From the NCBI RefSeq assembly GCF_008329525.1, contig NZ_NPKQ01000002.1:992001-1056000 (forward strand): DNA of 64,000 bases. The letters run 5' to 3'. The notes under the pieces were generated by a model. It saw only the letters and a list, made by a program, of their open reading frames with translations. It did no database searches and was not told where the DNA came from. This document shows positions 55,595 through 64,000 of the stretch, in pieces (within the stretch, counting starts at the first letter, position 1; the number at the start of each line of letters is the position of its first letter). The position numbers and the translations under genes are program-made. This stretch comes from Tardiphaga sp. P9-11. GTDB lineage: Bacteria > Pseudomonadota > Alphaproteobacteria > Rhizobiales > Xanthobacteraceae.

Positions 55595-56824
55595 TTACTT
55601 GTCCGGCGAGAGCGGCATCTGGATGTCGCCCTTGATGTGCTTGATCGGTCCGGCCGATGACGGGTTGATGTCGAAGTCGAAGATCTGTGTCGGCAGCCAC
55701 AGCGTGGCGCAGGCATTGGGCACGTCGACGACGCCCGAGATGTGGCCCTGCACCGGCGCGGTGCCGAGGATCGAATAGGCTTGCGCACCGGAGTAGCCGA
55801 ACTTCTTCAGATACTCGATGGCATTCAAGCAGGCCTGACGATAGGCGATATGGACGTCGAGGTAATGCTGCTTGCCCTGCTCATCGACCGAGATGCCTTC
55901 AAAGATCAGGAAGTCGTTGTAGTTCGGCGTCATCGGTGACGGCTTGAACACCGGATTCTTGATGCCGTATTTCGACACGCCGTCCTTGATGATATCAACC
56001 TTGATGTGCAGCCAGCCCGCCATTTCAATGGCGCCGCAGAAAGTGATTTCGCCGTCGCCCTGCGAGAAGTGCAGGTCGCCCATGGAGAGACCTCCGCCGG
56101 GGACATAGACCGGGAAATAGACCTTCGAGCCACGCGACAGATCCTTGATGTCGCAATTGCCGCCGTGTTCGCGCGGCGGCACCGTGCGTGCACCTTCGGC
56201 TGCAGCCTTCTCCTTCGCCTCACCCTTCAGCCGGCCCATATGCGCGGTCGGGCCGAACGGGGGATTGGCGAGACCGGGCACGCGCTCCGGATTGGTGGCA
56301 ATCAGCGCGGTCTCGCGCTCGTTCCAGGTAGCGAGCAATTTCGGATCGGGCAGACAGCCGATCAGGCCGGGATGGATCAGGCCTGCGAAGTTCACGCCGG
56401 GGATATGGCGCGACGAGGTGTACATGCCCTTGAAGTCCCAGATCGACTTCTGCGCTTCCGGGAAGTGATCGGTCAGGAAGCCGCCGCCATTCTGTTTCGA
56501 GAAGAAGCCGTTGAACCCCCACAGCGCGTCCTTCATCGGGCCGACATCGAGCAGGTCGACGACGAGGAGATCTCCGGGCTCGGCGCCCTTGACCCCGATC
56601 GGGCCCGACAGGAAATGCACGATCGACAGATCGATATCGCGCACGTCATCGGCGCTGTCGTTGTTCTTGATGAAGCCGCCGGTCCAGTCATAGGTCTCGA
56701 CGATGAAGTCATCGCCCGGATTGACCCATGCCACCATGGGAATGTCAGAATGCCAGCGATTGTGAATCATGTCGTTGTCGTAGGCCGATTGCGTGAGGTC
56801 GACCTTGATCAGTGTATCTGGCAT
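55595..56824 (-). CDS. fmdA: Formamidase FmdA (acetamidase/formamidase family)
   Basis: A 409-residue enzyme with the full-length FmdA/AmdA pattern: MPDTLIKVDLTQSAYDNDMI start, HFLSGPIGVKGAEPGDLLVV, IPGVNFAGLIHPGLIGC, REHGGNCDIKDLSRGSKVYF (each conserved) and VDVPNACATLWLP near the end. It hydrolyses formamide to formate and ammonia, and some members take acetamide. It is encoded directly downstream of the urtABCDE-type transporter (49 nt after urtE) and before fmdB, the same gene set as the Methylophilus fmd cluster. ATG 56824 has a GGGGAG ribosome site. Confidence 0.94.
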   Translation of the reverse strand: MPDTLIKVDLTQSAYDNDMIHNRWHSDIPMVAWVNPGDDFIVETYDWTGGFIKNNDSADDVRDIDLSIVHFLSGPIGVKGAEPGDLLVVDLLDVGPMKDALWGFNGFFSKQNGGGFLTDHFPEAQKSIWDFKGMYTSSRHIPGVNFAGLIHPGLIGCLPDPKLLATWNERETALIATNPERVPGLANPPFGPTAHMGRLKGEAKEKAAAEGARTVPPREHGGNCDIKDLSRGSKVYFPVYVPGGGLSMGDLHFSQGDGEITFCGAIEMAGWLHIKVDIIKDGVSKYGIKNPVFKPSPMTPNYNDFLIFEGISVDEQGKQHYLDVHIAYRQACLNAIEYLKKFGYSGAQAYSILGTAPVQGHISGVVDVPNACATLWLPTQIFDFDINPSSAGPIKHIKGDIQMPLSPDK

Positions 56825-56873: not shown

Positions 56874-57563
56874 TTAGACGGACAGGTACTTCGCGATCTG
56901 CGCGGCATCGATCCCTTCGCGCGCTTCGTCGCGAACGATTTCGCCGTTCTCGATAACGAGGACGCGATCAGCGACATCGAGCGCGAAGCTCAGAACCTGT
57001 TCGGAAACGATGATCGACAGACCCTTGGTGTCGCGGATGTGCTTCAGCGTGCGGGCCATGTCCTTGATGATCGACGGCTGAATGCCTTCGGTGGGTTCAT
57101 CGAGCAACAACACCTTCGGCTTGGTCGCAAGCGCACGCGCGATGGCGAGTTGCTGCTGCTGACCACCTGACAGGTTGCCGCCGCGACGACCTTTCATTTC
57201 GAGCAGCACCGGAAACAGCTCGTAGAGATCGCCAGGCACTTCCTTCTCGCCGGAAGCGACGAGGCCGGTCTCGATATTCTCCTTCACCGTCATATGGGAG
57301 AAGATCATGCGGCCTTGCGGCACATATGCGAGGCCGTGCGCGACGCGTTCATAGCTCTTCAGCGCGCCGAGCTCCTTGCCCTCCATGGTCACCGAGCCCG
57401 ACTTGGTCGGCACGATGCCCATCAGCGATTTCATCAACGTGGTCTTACCCATACCGTTGCGGCCCATGATGGCCACGATTTCGTTGGGCTGCACTTGCAC
57501 ATTCAGGCCATGCAGGACCTCGCTCTGGCCGTAAGCGACGTGGAGATCGTTGATCGCGAGCAT
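56874..57563 (-). CDS. urtE: ABC transporter ATPase, UrtE/FmdF type
   Basis: A 229-residue LivF-like ATPase. Walker A is GRNGMGKTT (about residues 34-42), the signature is LSGGQQQQLAIARAL and Walker B is VLLLDEPTEGIQP. The PTEGIQPSII stretch is characteristic of UrtE. It pairs with UrtD to power uptake of urea or short amides. ATG 57563 is chosen with GAGGAG upstream. It starts 10 nt after urtD. Confidence 0.93.
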   Translation of the reverse strand: MLAINDLHVAYGQSEVLHGLNVQVQPNEIVAIMGRNGMGKTTLMKSLMGIVPTKSGSVTMEGKELGALKSYERVAHGLAYVPQGRMIFSHMTVKENIETGLVASGEKEVPGDLYELFPVLLEMKGRRGGNLSGGQQQQLAIARALATKPKVLLLDEPTEGIQPSIIKDMARTLKHIRDTKGLSIIVSEQVLSFALDVADRVLVIENGEIVRDEAREGIDAAQIAKYLSV

Positions 57564-57573
57564 GGTGATCTCC

Positions 57574-58329
<756 letters not shown>

Positions 58330-58340
58330 GACGTGTCCCC

Positions 58341-59486
58341 TTACTCTGCTGGCGCGCCGTCGGCGGCGGATTTGATGGCCCAGGCCCTCTTTGATTTTTC
58401 AGAGCGCATGGCGATCAGACGGTCGATGTGTCGCGCCACGTGGTCGCGCCAGATGCCAGACAGGCCGCTGGGGAAGAACAACACCACGGCGATGAACAGA
58501 CCGCCGAGGCCGAACAGCCACAATTCGGGGAAGGATTCCGACAGCATGGTCTTGGCGTAGTTCACGAGCAACGTGCCGTAGACCGCGCCGAAGATTGACA
58601 TCCGGCCACCGACCGCGGTGTAGATCACCATTTCGATGGACGGTACGATGCCGACGAAGGACGGCGACATGAACCCGATCTGCAGCGTGAACATCGCGCC
58701 ACCGATCGACGCGAACATCGCCGCCGCGCAGAAGGCGAATATCTTGAAATTGGCCACGCTGTAGCCGGAGAAGCGCACGCGATCCTCCTGCTCACGCATC
58801 GCCACCAGGATGCGGCCCAGCTTGGTCAGCCGGATGAACTGCGCCGTGATGATGCAGGCGAACAGCACGAACACTTCGAAGAAGTAGAGGATGACCTTGG
58901 CGTGATCGGTGCGGATGTCCCAGCCGTTCAGCGTGCGGAGATCGGTCATGCCGTTGATGCCGCCGGTATAGCCCTGCTGGCCAATGATCAGGATGGTCGC
59001 GATTGCGGCGATCGCTTGCGTGATGATGGCGAAATAGACGCCGCCGACACGGCGTTTGAACATCGCGGCACCGATGATGAAAGCGAGCAGTGTCGGAACC
59101 AACAGAATGGCGATGATGGTCAACGGCAGCGAGTGGAACGGCTTCCAGAACATCGGCAGCGCCGTGATCTGGTTCCAGTCCATGAAATCCGGAATGCCGG
59201 GAGTCGACTGGATCTTGGTGTTGGCGACGCTGGAGGCTTCCAGCTTGAGAAACATCGCCATGCAGTAGCCGCCAAGGCCGAAAAACACACCCTGGCCGAG
59301 GCTGAGAATGCCGCCATAGCCCCAGCACATCACGAGGCCGAGCGCGACGAAGGCATAGGTCAGATATTTGGCGACCAGGTTGAGACGAAACGTGTCGAGA
59401 AAAAACGGCAGGATCACCGCGAGCAGCAACAGCAGCGACAGGAAACCGATCAGCTCCGAGCGGTTGAAGAAGCGAGAATTGATCAT
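58341..59486 (-). CDS. urtC: ABC transporter permease, UrtC type
   Basis: A 381-residue LivM-like permease with about ten helices. Family-specific segments are CWGYGGILSLGQGVFFGLGG, GGVYFAIITQAIAAIATILI, and GQQGYTGGINGMTDLRTLNG, the last typical of urea/amide rather than branched-chain amino acid permeases. The EAA-like loop MREQEDRVRFSGYSV contacts the ATPases. It lies 36 nt after urtB. Confidence 0.93.
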   Translation of the reverse strand: MINSRFFNRSELIGFLSLLLLLAVILPFFLDTFRLNLVAKYLTYAFVALGLVMCWGYGGILSLGQGVFFGLGGYCMAMFLKLEASSVANTKIQSTPGIPDFMDWNQITALPMFWKPFHSLPLTIIAILLVPTLLAFIIGAAMFKRRVGGVYFAIITQAIAAIATILIIGQQGYTGGINGMTDLRTLNGWDIRTDHAKVILYFFEVFVLFACIITAQFIRLTKLGRILVAMREQEDRVRFSGYSVANFKIFAFCAAAMFASIGGAMFTLQIGFMSPSFVGIVPSIEMVIYTAVGGRMSIFGAVYGTLLVNYAKTMLSESFPELWLFGLGGLFIAVVLFFPSGLSGIWRDHVARHIDRLIAMRSEKSKRAWAIKSAADGAPAE

Positions 59487-59522: not shown

Positions 59523-60449
59523 TTACTTGCGGACCTTGAGGGCGAACAGGCCCTGCGGCCGGATCATCAGGATCGCGACGATGGTGAGCAGCGTCAGCAC
59601 CTTGGCCATCGAGCCGGACATGAAGAACTCCATAGTCGACTGCGCCTGGGAGATGGTGAAGGCCGAGGCAATGGTCCCGAACAGGCTGGCGGCGCCGCCG
59701 AACACCACGACGAGGAACGTATCGACGATATAGAGCTGGCCTGAGGTCGGCCCGGTCGAGCCGATCATGGTGAAGGCGGAGCCGGCGATCCCGGCAATGC
59801 CGCAGCCGAGGCCGAAAGTGTAGCGGTCGACCTTCTCGGTATTGATACCGACGGCGCCGGCCATCACGCGGTTCTGCACCACAGCACGAACCTGCTTGCC
59901 CCAACGAGATTTATACATGATCCAGGCGACGACCACGGTGATCGCTAGCGTTAGGCACATCACGAAGATGCCGTTGATCGGTACTTCGATCGTATCGGTC
60001 ACCTGCTTGGAGCCCATCATCCATTGCGGCAGTTCGACGCCGACTTCACGGGCACCGAACACCGAGCGATAGGCCTGCTGAAGGATCAGGCTGAGGCCCC
60101 ATGTGGCAAGCAGCGTGTCGAGCGGGCGTTTGTAGAGATGTCGTATGAGCGCCCATTCGACGAGCATCCCCAGCGCACCGGAGGCGATGAAGGCGAGGAT
60201 CATGGCGACAAAGAAGTAGCCCGAGAACAGCGACGGCAGATGCGACTGGAAGAAACTCGACGTCATCCAGGTGACGTAGGCGCCGAGGATCATGAATTCG
60301 CCATGGGCCATGTTGATGACGCCCATCTGGCCGAAGATGATCGCCAGGCCGAGCGCCATCAGCACATAGACCGAAAACAGGATCAGGCCGGCAAAGCCCT
60401 GCATTGCGAAGATGGCGCCAAGGTCGCCAATCGAATAGTCGCCGAACAT
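59523..60449 (-). CDS. urtB: ABC transporter permease, UrtB type
   Basis: A 308-residue LivH-like permease with about eight helices: ALGLAIIFGQMGVINMAHGE and MILGAYVTWMTSSFF near the start and FGGAASLFGTIASAFTISQA near the end. VVQNRVMAGAVGINTEKVDR is the UrtB-type coupling loop. ATG 60449 is chosen because GGAGG precedes it; an upstream extension has no homology. It is 134 nt after urtA; this gap holds a small hairpin. Confidence 0.92.
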   Translation of the reverse strand: MFGDYSIGDLGAIFAMQGFAGLILFSVYVLMALGLAIIFGQMGVINMAHGEFMILGAYVTWMTSSFFQSHLPSLFSGYFFVAMILAFIASGALGMLVEWALIRHLYKRPLDTLLATWGLSLILQQAYRSVFGAREVGVELPQWMMGSKQVTDTIEVPINGIFVMCLTLAITVVVAWIMYKSRWGKQVRAVVQNRVMAGAVGINTEKVDRYTFGLGCGIAGIAGSAFTMIGSTGPTSGQLYIVDTFLVVVFGGAASLFGTIASAFTISQAQSTMEFFMSGSMAKVLTLLTIVAILMIRPQGLFALKVRK

Positions 60450-60583: not shown

Positions 60584-61843
60584 TTACTGATAGCCCTTGG
60601 GGAACGGATCCGGCTCGATCAGTTCGGGCGTCTCGTAGACCACCTTGAACTGGCCATCGAGCTGGGCCTGACCGACGCGGGCCTTCGACCACAGATGGTG
60701 GTTCGGATGGATCTTGACGTAGCCTTCCGGGGCCTTGGTGAATTCGATGCCGGCGGAAGCCGCAGCGATCTTGTCGATATCGAAGGATCCGGCTTTTTCG
60801 ACGGTCATTTTCCATAGCCACGGGCCGAGATAGGCAGCCTGCGTCACGTCGCCGATCACGGTCTTCTCACCCCACATCTTCTTGAAGGCGGCGACGAATT
60901 CCTTGTTGTTCGGATTATCGAGCGATTGGAAGTACTTCATACAGGCATAGGCGCCCGCGATGTTCTCGCCGCCGATACCGTCGATTTCATCCTCAGTGAC
61001 CGAGATGGTCAGCATGGTCTGCTTCGACAGATCGATGCCCGCTGCCTTGAGCTGCTTGTAGAAGGCGACGTTGGAGCCGCCGACGACTGCGGCATAGATC
61101 ACATCCGGCTTGGTCAACTTGATCTTGTTGATGACCGAGTTGAACTGGGTGTGGCCGAGCGGGAAGTATTCTTCGCCTGCGACCTTGCCACCGAGCTTGC
61201 CCTCGATGTGCTTGCGGGCAATCTTCATTGACGTGCGTGGCCAGATATAGTCCGAGCCGATCAGATAGTAGCTCTTGCCGTTCTTCGTCTTGGAGACCCA
61301 GTCGAGGCCGGCGAGGATCTGTTGGGTGGCTTCCTGACCGGTGTAGATCACGTTCTTGGACTGCTCGAGGCCTTCATAGAAGGTCGGGTAGTACAGCATG
61401 CCGTTGTACTGCTCCATGACCGGCAGCACCGCCTTGCGGGAGGCCGAGGTCCAGCAGCCCATGATGGCGGCGACCTTGTCGTTGACCAGCAGCTTTTTGG
61501 CCTTTTCGGCGAAAGTCGGCCAGTCCGAGGCACCGTCTTCCTGGATGAATTTGATCTTGCGGCCGAGCACGCCGCCCATGGCGTTGATCTGGTCGATGGC
61601 TAGCTTTTCAGCCTGCACCGAGCCGGTTTCCGAGATGGCCATGGTACCGGTAACCGAATGCAGGATGCCGACAGTGACTTCCGTATCGGTGACCGCGAGG
61701 CCGGTGGTGTTGATGGCCGAAGTGGCAGGCGCCTGCGCAAAAGATGTGCGCGGAAGCAACGACATTGCCGGCAAAGCCGCCATGCCCATCAGCAGTTTAC
61801 GCCGCAATGGCGAGTGCAAGCCCGGTTTCTTCTCGTCTGACAT
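60584..61843 (-). CDS. urtA: Amide/urea ABC transporter substrate-binding protein, UrtA type
   Basis: A 419-residue periplasmic binding protein. The signal (residues ~1-36) begins with LRRKLLMGMAALPAMSLL, a twin-arginine-like start ending FAQA. The mature protein has UrtA/AmiC features: TVGILHSVTGTMAISETG, GCWTSASRKAVLPVMEQYNG, LLYYPTFYEG-type MLYYPTFYEGLEQS and YLIGSDYIWPRTS. The family binds urea, formamide or acetamide. ATG 61843 is chosen since it begins the signal. It heads the operon with fmdA and fmdB. A 41-bp inverted repeat lies 57 nt upstream. Confidence 0.92.
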   Translation of the reverse strand: MSDEKKPGLHSPLRRKLLMGMAALPAMSLLPRTSFAQAPATSAINTTGLAVTDTEVTVGILHSVTGTMAISETGSVQAEKLAIDQINAMGGVLGRKIKFIQEDGASDWPTFAEKAKKLLVNDKVAAIMGCWTSASRKAVLPVMEQYNGMLYYPTFYEGLEQSKNVIYTGQEATQQILAGLDWVSKTKNGKSYYLIGSDYIWPRTSMKIARKHIEGKLGGKVAGEEYFPLGHTQFNSVINKIKLTKPDVIYAAVVGGSNVAFYKQLKAAGIDLSKQTMLTISVTEDEIDGIGGENIAGAYACMKYFQSLDNPNNKEFVAAFKKMWGEKTVIGDVTQAAYLGPWLWKMTVEKAGSFDIDKIAAASAGIEFTKAPEGYVKIHPNHHLWSKARVGQAQLDGQFKVVYETPELIEPDPFPKGYQ

Positions 61844-61899: not shown

Positions 61900-61940
61900 T
61901 GCGGTGCACGGATACGCGAGATCGCGTATACTGCACCGCA
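61900..61940. promoter_or_regulatory. 41-bp interrupted inverted repeat in divergent promoter region
   Basis: Outer arms TGCGGTGCA / TGCACCGCA and inner arms ATACGCG / CGCGTAT are nested, with loop AGAT and 3-nt and 2-nt spacers. It is centred at about 61920, 77 nt from the urtA start and 85 nt from the sensor start. A further GCATTGC / GCAATGC pair flanks it at 61885 and 61962. Likely an operator for a dimeric regulator. Confidence 0.6.
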
Positions 61941-62004
61941 AAATGCCGACGTAGGTTTTCGGCAATGCAAATATGCGTAGTTGAACAGGGTCAGGAGCGA
62001 AGTA

Positions 62005-64000
62005 GTGGCAGGGCGGCAGCGTATCGACCGCGTGAGACGCCAGTACAACCAATGGGTCGCCAACCAGACCCTTGAGGACTACGCCCTCCGCTTCACCGCG
62101 AAGAGCGCCCGGCGCTGGTCCGCCGCGCGGGTCGCCAATACGGCGCTCGGCGCCATCTCGTTTCTGGCCCTCGAGGCCATCGGCGGCACCATCACCATCA
62201 ATTACGGCATGACCAACGCCACAGCGGCGATCCTGGTGGTCAGTGTCATCATTTTTTGCTGCGGATTGCCGATCGCGTATCATGCCGCAAAATGCGGCAT
62301 CGATATTGACCTCCTCACCCGCGGCGCCGGCTTCGGCTATATTGGCTCAACTGTTACATCGCTAATCTACGCGTCTTTCACCTTCATCTTTTTCGCCATC
62401 GAGGCCGTCATTCTCGCTTCGGCGCTGGAGATGTGTTTCGATATTCCGCGTCCTATCGGCTACCTGATATCGGCGGTGGTCATCATCCCCCTGGTGACTC
62501 ACGGCATCACGCTGATCAGCCGTTTCCAGCTCTGGACCCAGCCGATCTGGCTGGTACTAAATCTGCTGCCCTTCGCGGCCATCGCCTATTCCAGCCGCGA
62601 CTCCTTCGTGGCATGGACCAAATTTCCGGGCGACCACGGCAGCGCCGCTGGCCATCTCGATCTCCTGCTGTTTGGCACGGCCGCGTCCGTCGTGTTCTCG
62701 CTGGTCGCGCAGATCGGCGAACAGGTCGACTTCCTGCGCTTTCTGCCTCGCGACCGCCGCAGCTCCAAGGTGAGCTGGTGGGTGGCGCTACTCTGCGCAG
62801 GCCCGGGCTGGATCATCGTCGGCGCCATCAAGCTGCTGGCCGGCTCATTCCTCGCCTATTTTGCACTGACCCACGGCATCTCCGCCGAACACGCCGCCGA
62901 GCCTGCGCATATGTATCTCGAAGCGTTTCGCTATGTGCTGTCGCAGCCAGATTTGGCGCTCGCACTGACCGGCACCTTCGTGATCCTGTCGCAGCTCAAG
63001 ATCAACGTGACCAATGCCTATGCCGGCTCGATCGCCTGGTCGAACTTCTTCTCGCGCCTCACCCACAGCCATCCCGGCCGCGTCGTCTGGCTGGTGTTTA
63101 ACGTTCTGGTCGCGCTGCTGCTGATGGAGATCGGCGTCTACAAGGCGCTGGAGCAGACACTGGCGCTCTACTCCAACGTTGCGATTGCATGGGTCGGCGC
63201 GCTGGTCGCCGATCTGGTCATCAACAAGCCGCTCGGACTGCGCCCGCAGCAGATGGAGTTCAAGCGCGCGCATCTCTACGACATCAACCCGGTCGGCGTC
63301 GGCGCCATGCTGGCCGCCACCGTGATGTCGGTCAGCGCGTTTTATGGATTGTTCGGCCCCACGGCCAAGGCACTGTCGCCCTTCGTCGCTCTGGTTACTG
63401 CCCTCGTGATTGCCCCGATCATCGCCTTTGCGACAGGCGGGAAATACTACATTGCCCGCAAGCCGAAGCGCGCCTGGCAAAATATGGCGGCGATCCAATG
63501 CTGTATCTGCGAGCACTCGTTCGAGCCCGAGGACATGGCCCACTGCCCGGCCTATGCCGGCCCGATCTGCTCGCTGTGCTGCTCGCTCGACGCCCGCTGC
63601 CACGATCTCTGCAAGCCGCATGCGCGGATCGACGCGCAGATGTCGGCGACGTTCGGAAAATTGCTGCCGGAGCCGATCCTGGCCCGGCTCAACTCGCAGC
63701 TCGGCCATTATCTTGGCGTGTTCATGATCGCTGCCGGCCTCGTCGGCCTGACGCTGGGACTGATCTATCTGCAGACCTCCGCCGCCTCGCCGGGAGACAG
63801 CGCGCAGGTCTCGGAAGTGCTGTGGAAAGTGTTCTTCGCGCTGGCGATCATCATCGGCGTGGTGGCATGGCTATTCGTGCTGGCCAAGCAAAGCCGTCGC
63901 GCCGCTGAAGCCGAGACCAAGCGGCAGACCACGCTGCTGATGCAGGAAATCGACGCGCACAAGCGCACCGATGCCGAGCTGCAGCGCGCCAAGGAGGTCG
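62005..64000 (+). CDS. NCS1-type permease fused to probable sensor histidine kinase (C-terminus outside window)
   Basis: At least 665 residues, open to the right edge. Residues ~45-480 are a 12-helix NCS1 (purine-cytosine/hydantoin) permease: NYGMTNATAAILVVSV, FGYIGSTVTSLIYASFTFIF, NVTNAYAGSIAWSNFFSRLT. Residues 499-536 carry nine cysteines (499, 500, 502, 514, 522, 525, 526, 532, 536), a probable metal-binding knot. Two more helices (~565-585, ~605-628) lead into a coiled coil (LLMQEIDAHKRTDAELQRAK) of the kind that precedes a HisKA domain. GTG 62005 is chosen with AGGAG upstream. It is divergent from the amide transporter operon. The kinase part itself is inferred. Confidence 0.8.
   Translation, partial: MAGRQRIDRVRRQYNQWVANQTLEDYALRFTAKSARRWSAARVANTALGAISFLALEAIGGTITINYGMTNATAAILVVSVIIFCCGLPIAYHAAKCGIDIDLLTRGAGFGYIGSTVTSLIYASFTFIFFAIEAVILASALEMCFDIPRPIGYLISAVVIIPLVTHGITLISRFQLWTQPIWLVLNLLPFAAIAYSSRDSFVAWTKFPGDHGSAAGHLDLLLFGTAASVVFSLVAQIGEQVDFLRFLPRDRRSSKVSWWVALLCAGPGWIIVGAIKLLAGSFLAYFALTHGISAEHAAEPAHMYLEAFRYVLSQPDLALALTGTFVILSQLKINVTNAYAGSIAWSNFFSRLTHSHPGRVVWLVFNVLVALLLMEIGVYKALEQTLALYSNVAIAWVGALVADLVINKPLGLRPQQMEFKRAHLYDINPVGVGAMLAATVMSVSAFYGLFGPTAKALSPFVALVTALVIAPIIAFATGGKYYIARKPKRAWQNMAAIQCCICEHSFEPEDMAHCPAYAGPICSLCCSLDARCHDLCKPHARIDAQMSATFGKLLPEPILARLNSQLGHYLGVFMIAAGLVGLTLGLIYLQTSAASPGDSAQVSEVLWKVFFALAIIIGVVAWLFVLAKQSRRAAEAETKRQTTLLMQEIDAHKRTDAELQRAKEV

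Follow-up and report, generated by a model that had tools for sequence, protein, structure and literature searches.

At the right-hand end of the window (the whole 64,000-nucleotide stretch of Tardiphaga sp. P9-11 DNA analysed here), a gene encoding a hybrid sensor histidine kinase lies divergent from a urtABCDE-fmdA gene set, and the kinase begins with a complete carrier-type membrane region modelled in the NCS1 fold. It is likely that this kinase senses urea or a short amide and, with a LuxR-type response regulator, controls the divergent urtABCDE-fmdA genes, or urease and canonical urt genes in other genomes. The choice of urea and short amides as the ligand class follows from the H2N-C=O group, which is common to urea and formamide. 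Since members of the family usually lie beside the genes for uptake and breakdown of these compounds, the kinase is probably the means by which many bacteria detect urea and formamide. The features of the locus are collected in Table 1.

Table 1. Features of the kinase locus, in window positions
Feature	Position	Strand	Basis or remark
fmdA, formamidase	55595..56824	-	NF045496, 767.6 bits (cut-off 500); PF03069
urtE, ATPase	56874..57596	-	TIGR03410 over cut-off; ORF start, true start may be further in
urtD, ATPase	57574..58329	-	TIGR03411 over cut-off
urtC, permease	58341..59486	-	TIGR03408 over cut-off
urtB, permease	59523..60449	-	TIGR03409 over cut-off
urtA, start at MSDEKK	60584..61843	-	TIGR03407, 542.9 bits (cut-off 492.75)
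Perfect 16-bp inverted repeat TACGCGAGATCGCGTA, proposed response-regulator binding site	61913..61928		TACG-N8-CGTA
Hybrid sensor kinase, 5' part (673 of 1132 aa)	61981..63999	+	Continues to G000:C16:1057379
Predicted NCS1-fold membrane region, about residues 22-495	62044..63465	+	AlphaFold model, Foldseek, hhalign
Glu141 codon, aligned with Mhp1 Gln121 (substrate site, TM3)	62401..62403	+	Joint alignment; E in 148/148
Lys340 codon, aligned with Mhp1 Ser312 / CodB Thr278 (sodium site Na2, TM8)	62998..63000	+	K in 148/148
Cysteine module, residues 507-544, C-x2-C-x11-C-P-x6-C-x2-C-C-x5-C-x3-C	63499..63612	+	8 Cys invariant, 148/148 rows
Two long helices and coiled coil toward HisKA	63697..63999	+	AlphaFold model

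The kinase and its carrier-type sensor

The kinase frame runs without a stop from a TTG at 61981 up to 63999, at the very end of the window, and in the whole-genome contig the stop falls 1132 codons past this TTG, from which residues are numbered throughout. A preliminary description, made from the window alone, had begun the protein at 62005, where a GTG in the same frame does offer a possible alternative start; the kinase would then be of 1124 amino acids, which is the ORF length of three relatives (G597, G384 and G315). Beyond the window's right edge the protein matches the Pfam HisKA (residues 681-746), HATPase (794-901) and receiver (928-1038) families, all over cut-off, and a HisKA histidine, a HATPase_c domain and a receiver aspartate mark it as a hybrid sensor histidine kinase. 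Its order of parts is the NCS1-fold membrane region, a cysteine module, two helices with a coiled coil, HisKA, HATPase and receiver; a Pfam scan of the kinase gave no PAS match. The sensor-kinase architecture proposed from the window was thus recovered once the contig was extended, the frame running on to 1132 residues with its kinase domains instead of stopping early.

Conservation was assessed over 148 full-length rows of 153 (five rows shorter than 850 amino acids were dropped), which are not all independent because some genomes are present in both collections. His690 was kept in 148/148 rows and Asp976 in 145/148, the other three being gaps, and a chance or spurious ORF is ruled out by the invariant motifs across these rows. 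The column majority was highest in the cysteine module (0.809), with HisKA (0.736), the sensor (0.735), HATPase (0.674), the receiver (0.573), the linker (0.488) and the C-terminus (0.432) following in this comparison of seven parts, such that conservation of the sensor roughly equals that of HisKA and exceeds that of the HATPase and receiver domains. The next gene, overlapping the 3' end of the kinase gene by 11 bp, encodes a 307-aa response regulator with a receiver and a LuxR-type domain, and of the 73 kinase loci sampled, 72 have this partner, L165 being the exception. Shorter kinases of the family, of 894 and 899 amino acids, are encoded at L165 (5629 downwards) and L166 (5775 downwards), with fmdA downstream on the same strand. 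A separate 416-aa receiver-HisKA-HATPase protein sits between kinase and fmdA at L165, and the parts of the hybrid may therefore be split there over two proteins.

An AlphaFold model of the window part of the kinase, computed from 51 sequences (the window's and 50 of 69 reference relatives), reached a mean pLDDT of 81.3 and a pTM of 0.81 and comprised a helical bundle, the cysteine module and two long helices (model residues 553-582 and 584-652), the second of which enters a coiled coil, in agreement with the helices and coiled coil first described after the cysteine region. In a Foldseek search of the PDB, the sensor model placed two CodB chains and three Mhp1 entries at ranks 1-5 (E 1.6e-8 to 8.4e-7; TM by target 0.66-0.74), with SLC5, APC and Nramp structures ranking below. 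An SLC5 identity was rejected on this ranking, and no SSF was found among the five Pfam families matched. When the sensor profile was compared by hhalign in global mode with a profile of six NCS1 proteins (L001, L219, L220, L221, Mhp1 and CodB), the two aligned end to end over 430 columns with a probability of 99.2. Comparisons with single sequences were weak for Mhp1 (probability 24), CodB (6) and L001 (7), and strong for the free carriers L024, L168 and L170 (97 to 99.9). No Pfam family was matched at E<=1 by the 673-aa window part and no PDB sequence at E<=1 by the sensor profile; PF02133 missed the kinase sensor in a search of its own genome and matched none of 11 kinase family members at E<=10. 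Since Pfam and PF02133 give no match, the label NCS1 rests on fold and profile comparison, by which the membrane region is a divergent branch of the NCS1 fold, and it is not filed as a member of the PF02133 family. The NCS1-like carrier region of the preliminary description was in this way upheld by structure and profile comparison, not by PF02133.

The pairing of sensor residues with those of Mhp1 and CodB derives from sequence alignment. Glu141 stands at the position of Mhp1 Gln121, a substrate-site residue (PMC4195764; papers are cited here by PMC number, from those portions of them that were available), and Lys340 at that of CodB Thr278, the hydroxyl of which binds sodium (PMC9379551). Ile341 (I in 147/148 rows) takes the second Na2 hydroxyl position in the joint alignment, and the Na2 hydroxyl residues of TM8 are absent both from the kinase sensor and from its four nearest free carriers. 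E141, Q244, E247, Q248, D250, Q338, K340, N342 and N345 are identical in all 148 full-length kinases, and the TM3 Trp position is occupied by Phe in 136/148 and by Leu in 12/148; N345 pairs with Mhp1 Asn318 in the joint alignment, the L001-Mhp1 alignment being shifted at that place. The four free carriers L168, L024, L169 and L170 share the same Glu and have Lys or Arg at the Lys340 position, and both the Glu and the Lys or Arg are missing from six other NCS1 proteins. As regards the conservation of NCS1 substrate-site residues, a check that the preliminary description had called for, Glu141 is invariant in the family, but it replaces Mhp1 Gln121 and the Na2 hydroxyls are lost. The invariant site residues speak for a sensor that still binds a ligand of some kind. 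In losing the sodium site it parallels CbrA, in which histidine uptake is not sodium-driven and seems to be proton-driven (PMC7096432).

The nine cysteines first described do fall within exactly 38 residues (507-544). One of them, C508, is a cysteine in only 72/148 rows, and the other eight are kept in 148/148 and equally so in formamidase-type loci. A search of 299 genomes with this module alone, in which first-look candidates were scored in part in some genomes, returned 42 strong matches, with E-values of 1.1e-17 or less, every one of which fell at a kinase locus of the family; the other 24 matches listed, mostly short frames, had E-values of 0.0056-0.0955. A generally shuffled domain was accordingly rejected, the strong matches in these 299 genomes being confined to kinase loci. 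The Pfam treble clef was touched by one of 25 members (E 1.6e-4). A model of the module with its flanks had a core pLDDT of about 90 and a whole pTM of 0.49; the best Foldseek matches to it were PHD, RING, LIM and FYVE folds, all non-significant (E 0.75 and above), and the module's profile found only weak zinc-finger pieces among PDB sequences. We read the module as a probable two-metal, zinc-type brace. Of the metal or redox coupling element envisaged in the preliminary description, a treble-clef or cross-brace metal site looks the likelier half, on the weak evidence of the non-significant Foldseek matches and the one Pfam match.

Family distribution, neighbouring genes and free carriers

An alignment search of a bacterial and archaeal collection matched at least 595 stretches, at least 589 of them relatives, and the best 80 were retained. 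By their titles, these best 80 of at least 589 belong to alpha-, beta- and gammaproteobacteria and one cyanobacterial MAG, and the nearest named relatives by identity among the matches listed were Bradyrhizobium and Afipia. An even draw of 398 genomes of the phylum, with up to three first-look candidates scored per genome so that further copies may be missed, contained 58 genomes with a match: 57 kinase loci in 52 genomes (two each in five), and free carriers, weak matches or a fragment in the remaining six. In a draw from the class the kinase was present in 20 of 289 genomes, that of Tardiphaga sp. P9-11 included, and four loci were common to both draws.

Flanks of the sampled loci were scored for urt, fmdA, urease and allophanate-hydrolase genes, initially over some 10 kb upstream and a few kb downstream, and six loci were given extra downstream DNA. 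At least one of these genes lay near 68 of the 73 kinase loci of the two draws (67 before extension), corresponding to 56/57 loci in the phylum draw and 16/20 (15/20 before extension) in the class draw. The initial flanks held window-type urtA at 44 loci, fmdA at 44, canonical urtA at 14, urease at 17 and atzF at three; in the phylum draw, window-type urtA occurred at 37 of the 57 loci and urease at 16. The longer flank added L117 (canonical urt), and urt and urease also appeared at L121. The five loci lacking such neighbours are L119, L120 and L122 (one genus) and L125, where none of these genes was found even with the extra downstream DNA, and L218, which is without upstream DNA to judge. 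Among the best 80 of at least 589 relatives, 72 loci have a UrtA that is divergent and at least 68% identical, and 62 have fmdA; L055, L067 and L099 have at most 373 bases before the kinase match, L085 and L104 lie by urease, L087 by canonical urt and L096 by an urt-like ABC set, and L026 had none of these urea/amide genes nearby. Neighbours that never included amide or ureide genes would have told against the preliminary description, a prospect removed by these counts; of the amides, ureides or nitrogen supply that it had offered as signals, the neighbours, in flanks scored for urea/amide genes, point to urea and formamide.

The divergent transporter at the window locus, previously called an amide importer, is indeed present, but it is a UrtABCDE set above the NCBIfam cut-offs. 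Since a urt-urease site occurs at one other place in this genome, on contig 3, the chance of nearness within 10 kb is estimated at about one per cent.

On a quick tree of 72 kinases, formamidase-type and urease-type neighbours require six changes. Their clustering is far stronger than that of shuffled labels, and from the well-supported branches alone at least four changes of the urease label and at least two of the formamidase label follow. The neighbour type is thus inherited, yet it has been re-paired several times. At L161, L162, L163, L167, L172 and L175, ureA is divergent within 421 bases of the kinase and no urt gene occurs in the flank. Three such ureA-type genomes (G513, G492 and G636) have a second kinase copy at urt-fmdA (L181, L193 and L182, respectively), and two paralogues may therefore divide urea and formamide between them. 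Downstream of the response regulator at L003 (5488-10007) are genes for a Peripla_BP_6 binding protein and a FAD-binding dehydrogenase, together with two genes assigned solely from their letters to a short-chain dehydrogenase and an IclR-type regulator; they probably form a separate catabolic operon. Divergent from the kinase at L119 (5024-9304) is a frame of 1427 amino acids that matches nSTAND3 weakly.

The class-wide search also yielded a free 473-aa carrier, L024 (25% identity, E 9e-10), and a back-search with it in 58 class genomes returned L024 itself and four of these kinases. L024 and L168 match PF02133, the former over cut-off. L168 is the nearest free carrier (28% identity to the sensor) and is followed, within L168:7949-12981, by genes for a carbon-nitrogen hydrolase, a Peripla_BP_5 binding protein and an AmiR/ANTAR protein, a set which we take to resemble an amidase operon and which is likely an amide or nitrile uptake operon. 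The free carriers at L169:7243-9787 and L170:7327-14030, with the same Glu and with Arg at the sodium site, have, in the case of L169, a carboxyltransferase A/B gene close by and, in that of L170, a hydantoinase/oxoprolinase gene, and are possibly carriers of 5-oxoproline or lactams. Because of the genes beside L168, L169 and L170, this carrier branch seems to handle amide-type compounds. The weak matches L171 and L180, presumably alanine/glycine symporters, have the letters of another carrier family and were not counted as relatives.

The intergenic repeat and the proposed signalling route

Word counts over 46 diverse kinase-urtA intergenic regions singled out TGACGTA and its complement. The pattern TACG-N8-CGTA was present in 46 of 71 such regions (those of 70 of the best 80 loci, with a UrtA of more than 60% identity within 900 bases, and that of the window), against a mean of 0.18 and a maximum of 2 in shuffles; 25 of the 71, those preceding L051, are closely related to the genus group of the window and among themselves, and in a diverse subset the pattern was present in 22 of 45 regions. 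The spacer is fixed at eight bases (46 loci), any other spacing from 2 to 15 being found at two loci at most, and the density of 2.14 per kb inside the intergenic regions compares with 0.010 outside, where the pattern is some 200 times rarer. The window copy is the sole perfect match to the degenerate form TACGYRWRATYRCGTA in the 6.16-Mb genome. A larger regulon in this genome was considered and rejected: counted together, the single perfect repeat and the two sites with one mismatch do not exceed a backwards control. In the even draws, a strict repeat occurred within 550 bases at 42 of 73 loci, but 29 of the loci have no window-type urtA and just 7 of these showed it; urease-type loci therefore often have either no such site or a diverged one. 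The upstream region of the L119 kinase, in the genus without urea neighbours, still holds TACGCAAAATAACGTA. An imperfect inverted repeat, different in sequence, is required by CrbR, the LuxR-type partner of an SLC5-STAC kinase (PMC5715377), which by analogy makes an operator site plausible between kinase and urtA.

We propose that urea or a short-chain amide would bind at the central site of the carrier, at Glu141 and its neighbours, and shift the carrier's conformation, and that the last carrier helix would pass this movement to the eight-cysteine module. This small and probably metal-braced module would play the part that STAC plays in CbrA, and the two helices and coiled coil would carry the movement on to HisKA. 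Phosphate would then pass from His690 to the receiver Asp976 and on to the LuxR regulator, which would bind TACG-N8-CGTA between kinase and urtA; the ligand, the metal, the relay and the direction of control all belong to what we infer. CbrA, in which a single protein is both histidine carrier and sensor kinase (PMC7096432), serves as a precedent.

The evidence from neighbours is guilt by association, and the kinase could sense, for example, nitrogen status and yet control urea genes. Histidine was without significant effect on the CbrA activities tested, according to the available part of PMC7096432, and a carrier domain therefore need not report its substrate. The substrates of characterised bacterial NCS1 carriers are said to be nitrogen rings, metformin being a reported exception (PMC13390362), which, with the four judgeable loci and L026 that lack urea genes, counts against urea/amide sensing. 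A kinase that responds to some other signal, whether a ring ureide, a nucleobase, ammonium or the nitrogen supply in general, and does no more than control urea/amide genes would suit this preference for ring compounds, and also the position of the more distant free carriers L169 and L170 by carboxyltransferase and hydantoinase/oxoprolinase genes, respectively; we nevertheless regard it as unlikely, since in flanks scored for urea/amide genes urea/amide uptake and hydrolysis are what the neighbours have in common through six switches on the tree, and the nearest free carrier, L168, lies in an amide-type operon. Still less probable is a cysteine module that gates the kinase as an independent redox or metal sensor, for nickel as an example, and not as a structural relay. 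Its eight invariant cysteines and the nickel that urease requires would agree with such a role, but the cysteines are kept just as well at formamidase-type loci, the model resembles binuclear zinc folds (non-significantly, E 0.75 and above) and one of 25 members matches the Pfam treble clef.

How the carrier domain of a urea/amide-sensing kinase would act is more evenly balanced. That it has lost transport and serves purely as a binding receptor, a variant of the preferred reading, has a little under an even chance: both Na2 hydroxyl positions are changed (Lys340 in 148/148, Ile341 in 147/148), Phe or Leu occupies the TM3 Trp position, and a urea ABC importer is encoded next door. Loss of the sodium site does not, however, imply loss of transport, because the four free carriers share the same Glu and Lys/Arg, and CbrA, without the sodium residues, carries histidine, probably with protons (PMC7096432). 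More tentatively, and with some doubt, the family may consist of true transceptors, in which a carrier of the NCS1 branch itself imports urea or short amides independently of sodium, signals through the metal-braced eight-cysteine module and has repeatedly been re-paired with formamidase and urease operons. Were this so, it would constitute a dedicated urea-sensing two-component system, with a coupling module so far seen in this family only.

Comparison with known systems

Literature searches on NCS1 with histidine kinases and on urea-sensing two-component systems, with most subscription journals outside their range, yielded no description of such a kinase; in the available portions of PMC6066579, PMC8399564 and PMC12369341, NCS1 occurs in one gene table and two reference lists. 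Fusions of carrier and kinase are already known (CbrA, CrbS, RpuS and an Amt-kinase), and those such as CbrA have been described as rare (PMC13022988); what sets this family apart is the carrier fold, the linker and the pathway. The route from carrier motion to kinase is an unsolved problem, which becomes directly testable, in tractable strains, because this family is common, has its own compact linker and comes with predictions for both the class of ligand and the operator. It would also supply pathways important to nitrogen cycling, in soil as well as in marine habitats, with a sensor of urea and amides.

The SLC5-STAC kinases CbrA, CrbS and RpuS have the same succession of a complete N-terminal carrier fold, a small cytosolic linker domain and a kinase, and CrbS/R and RpuS/R also employ a LuxR-family regulator, in the case of CrbR with an inverted-repeat operator (PMC5715377, PMC9100948, PMC7096432, PMC13022988). 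The window kinase differs from these in its NCS1-type carrier, in a linker formed by the eight-cysteine module and two helices, and in the urea/amide genes that neighbour its family; STAC was not among its Pfam matches, although Pfam may hold no STAC model, and the cysteine module stands in its place. The CbrA-like reading of the preliminary description, a kinase using a carrier as its input, is therefore supported, with an NCS1-type carrier instead of SLC5. In the Amt-histidine kinase of Kuenenia a carrier is likewise fused to a histidine kinase and a nitrogen compound is concerned, but the domain is an ammonium transporter and the ligand another one (PMC5764959). Mhp1 and CodB share with the sensor the fold, an aromatic or large stacking residue in TM3 and a polar TM8 (PMC4195764, PMC9379551), whereas the sensor has Glu at the Gln121 position and Lys-Ile in place of the Na2 hydroxyls, is fused to a kinase and lies below PF02133 detection. 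A counterpart in gene content is urea cluster III of Ectopseudomonas guguanensis G3, which likewise combines urtABCDE with a histidine kinase and a LuxR-family regulator, and which an fmdA locus tag adjoins; in the available portion of that report its kinase is named as a generic hybrid, with sensor and function undiscussed (PMC13296017).
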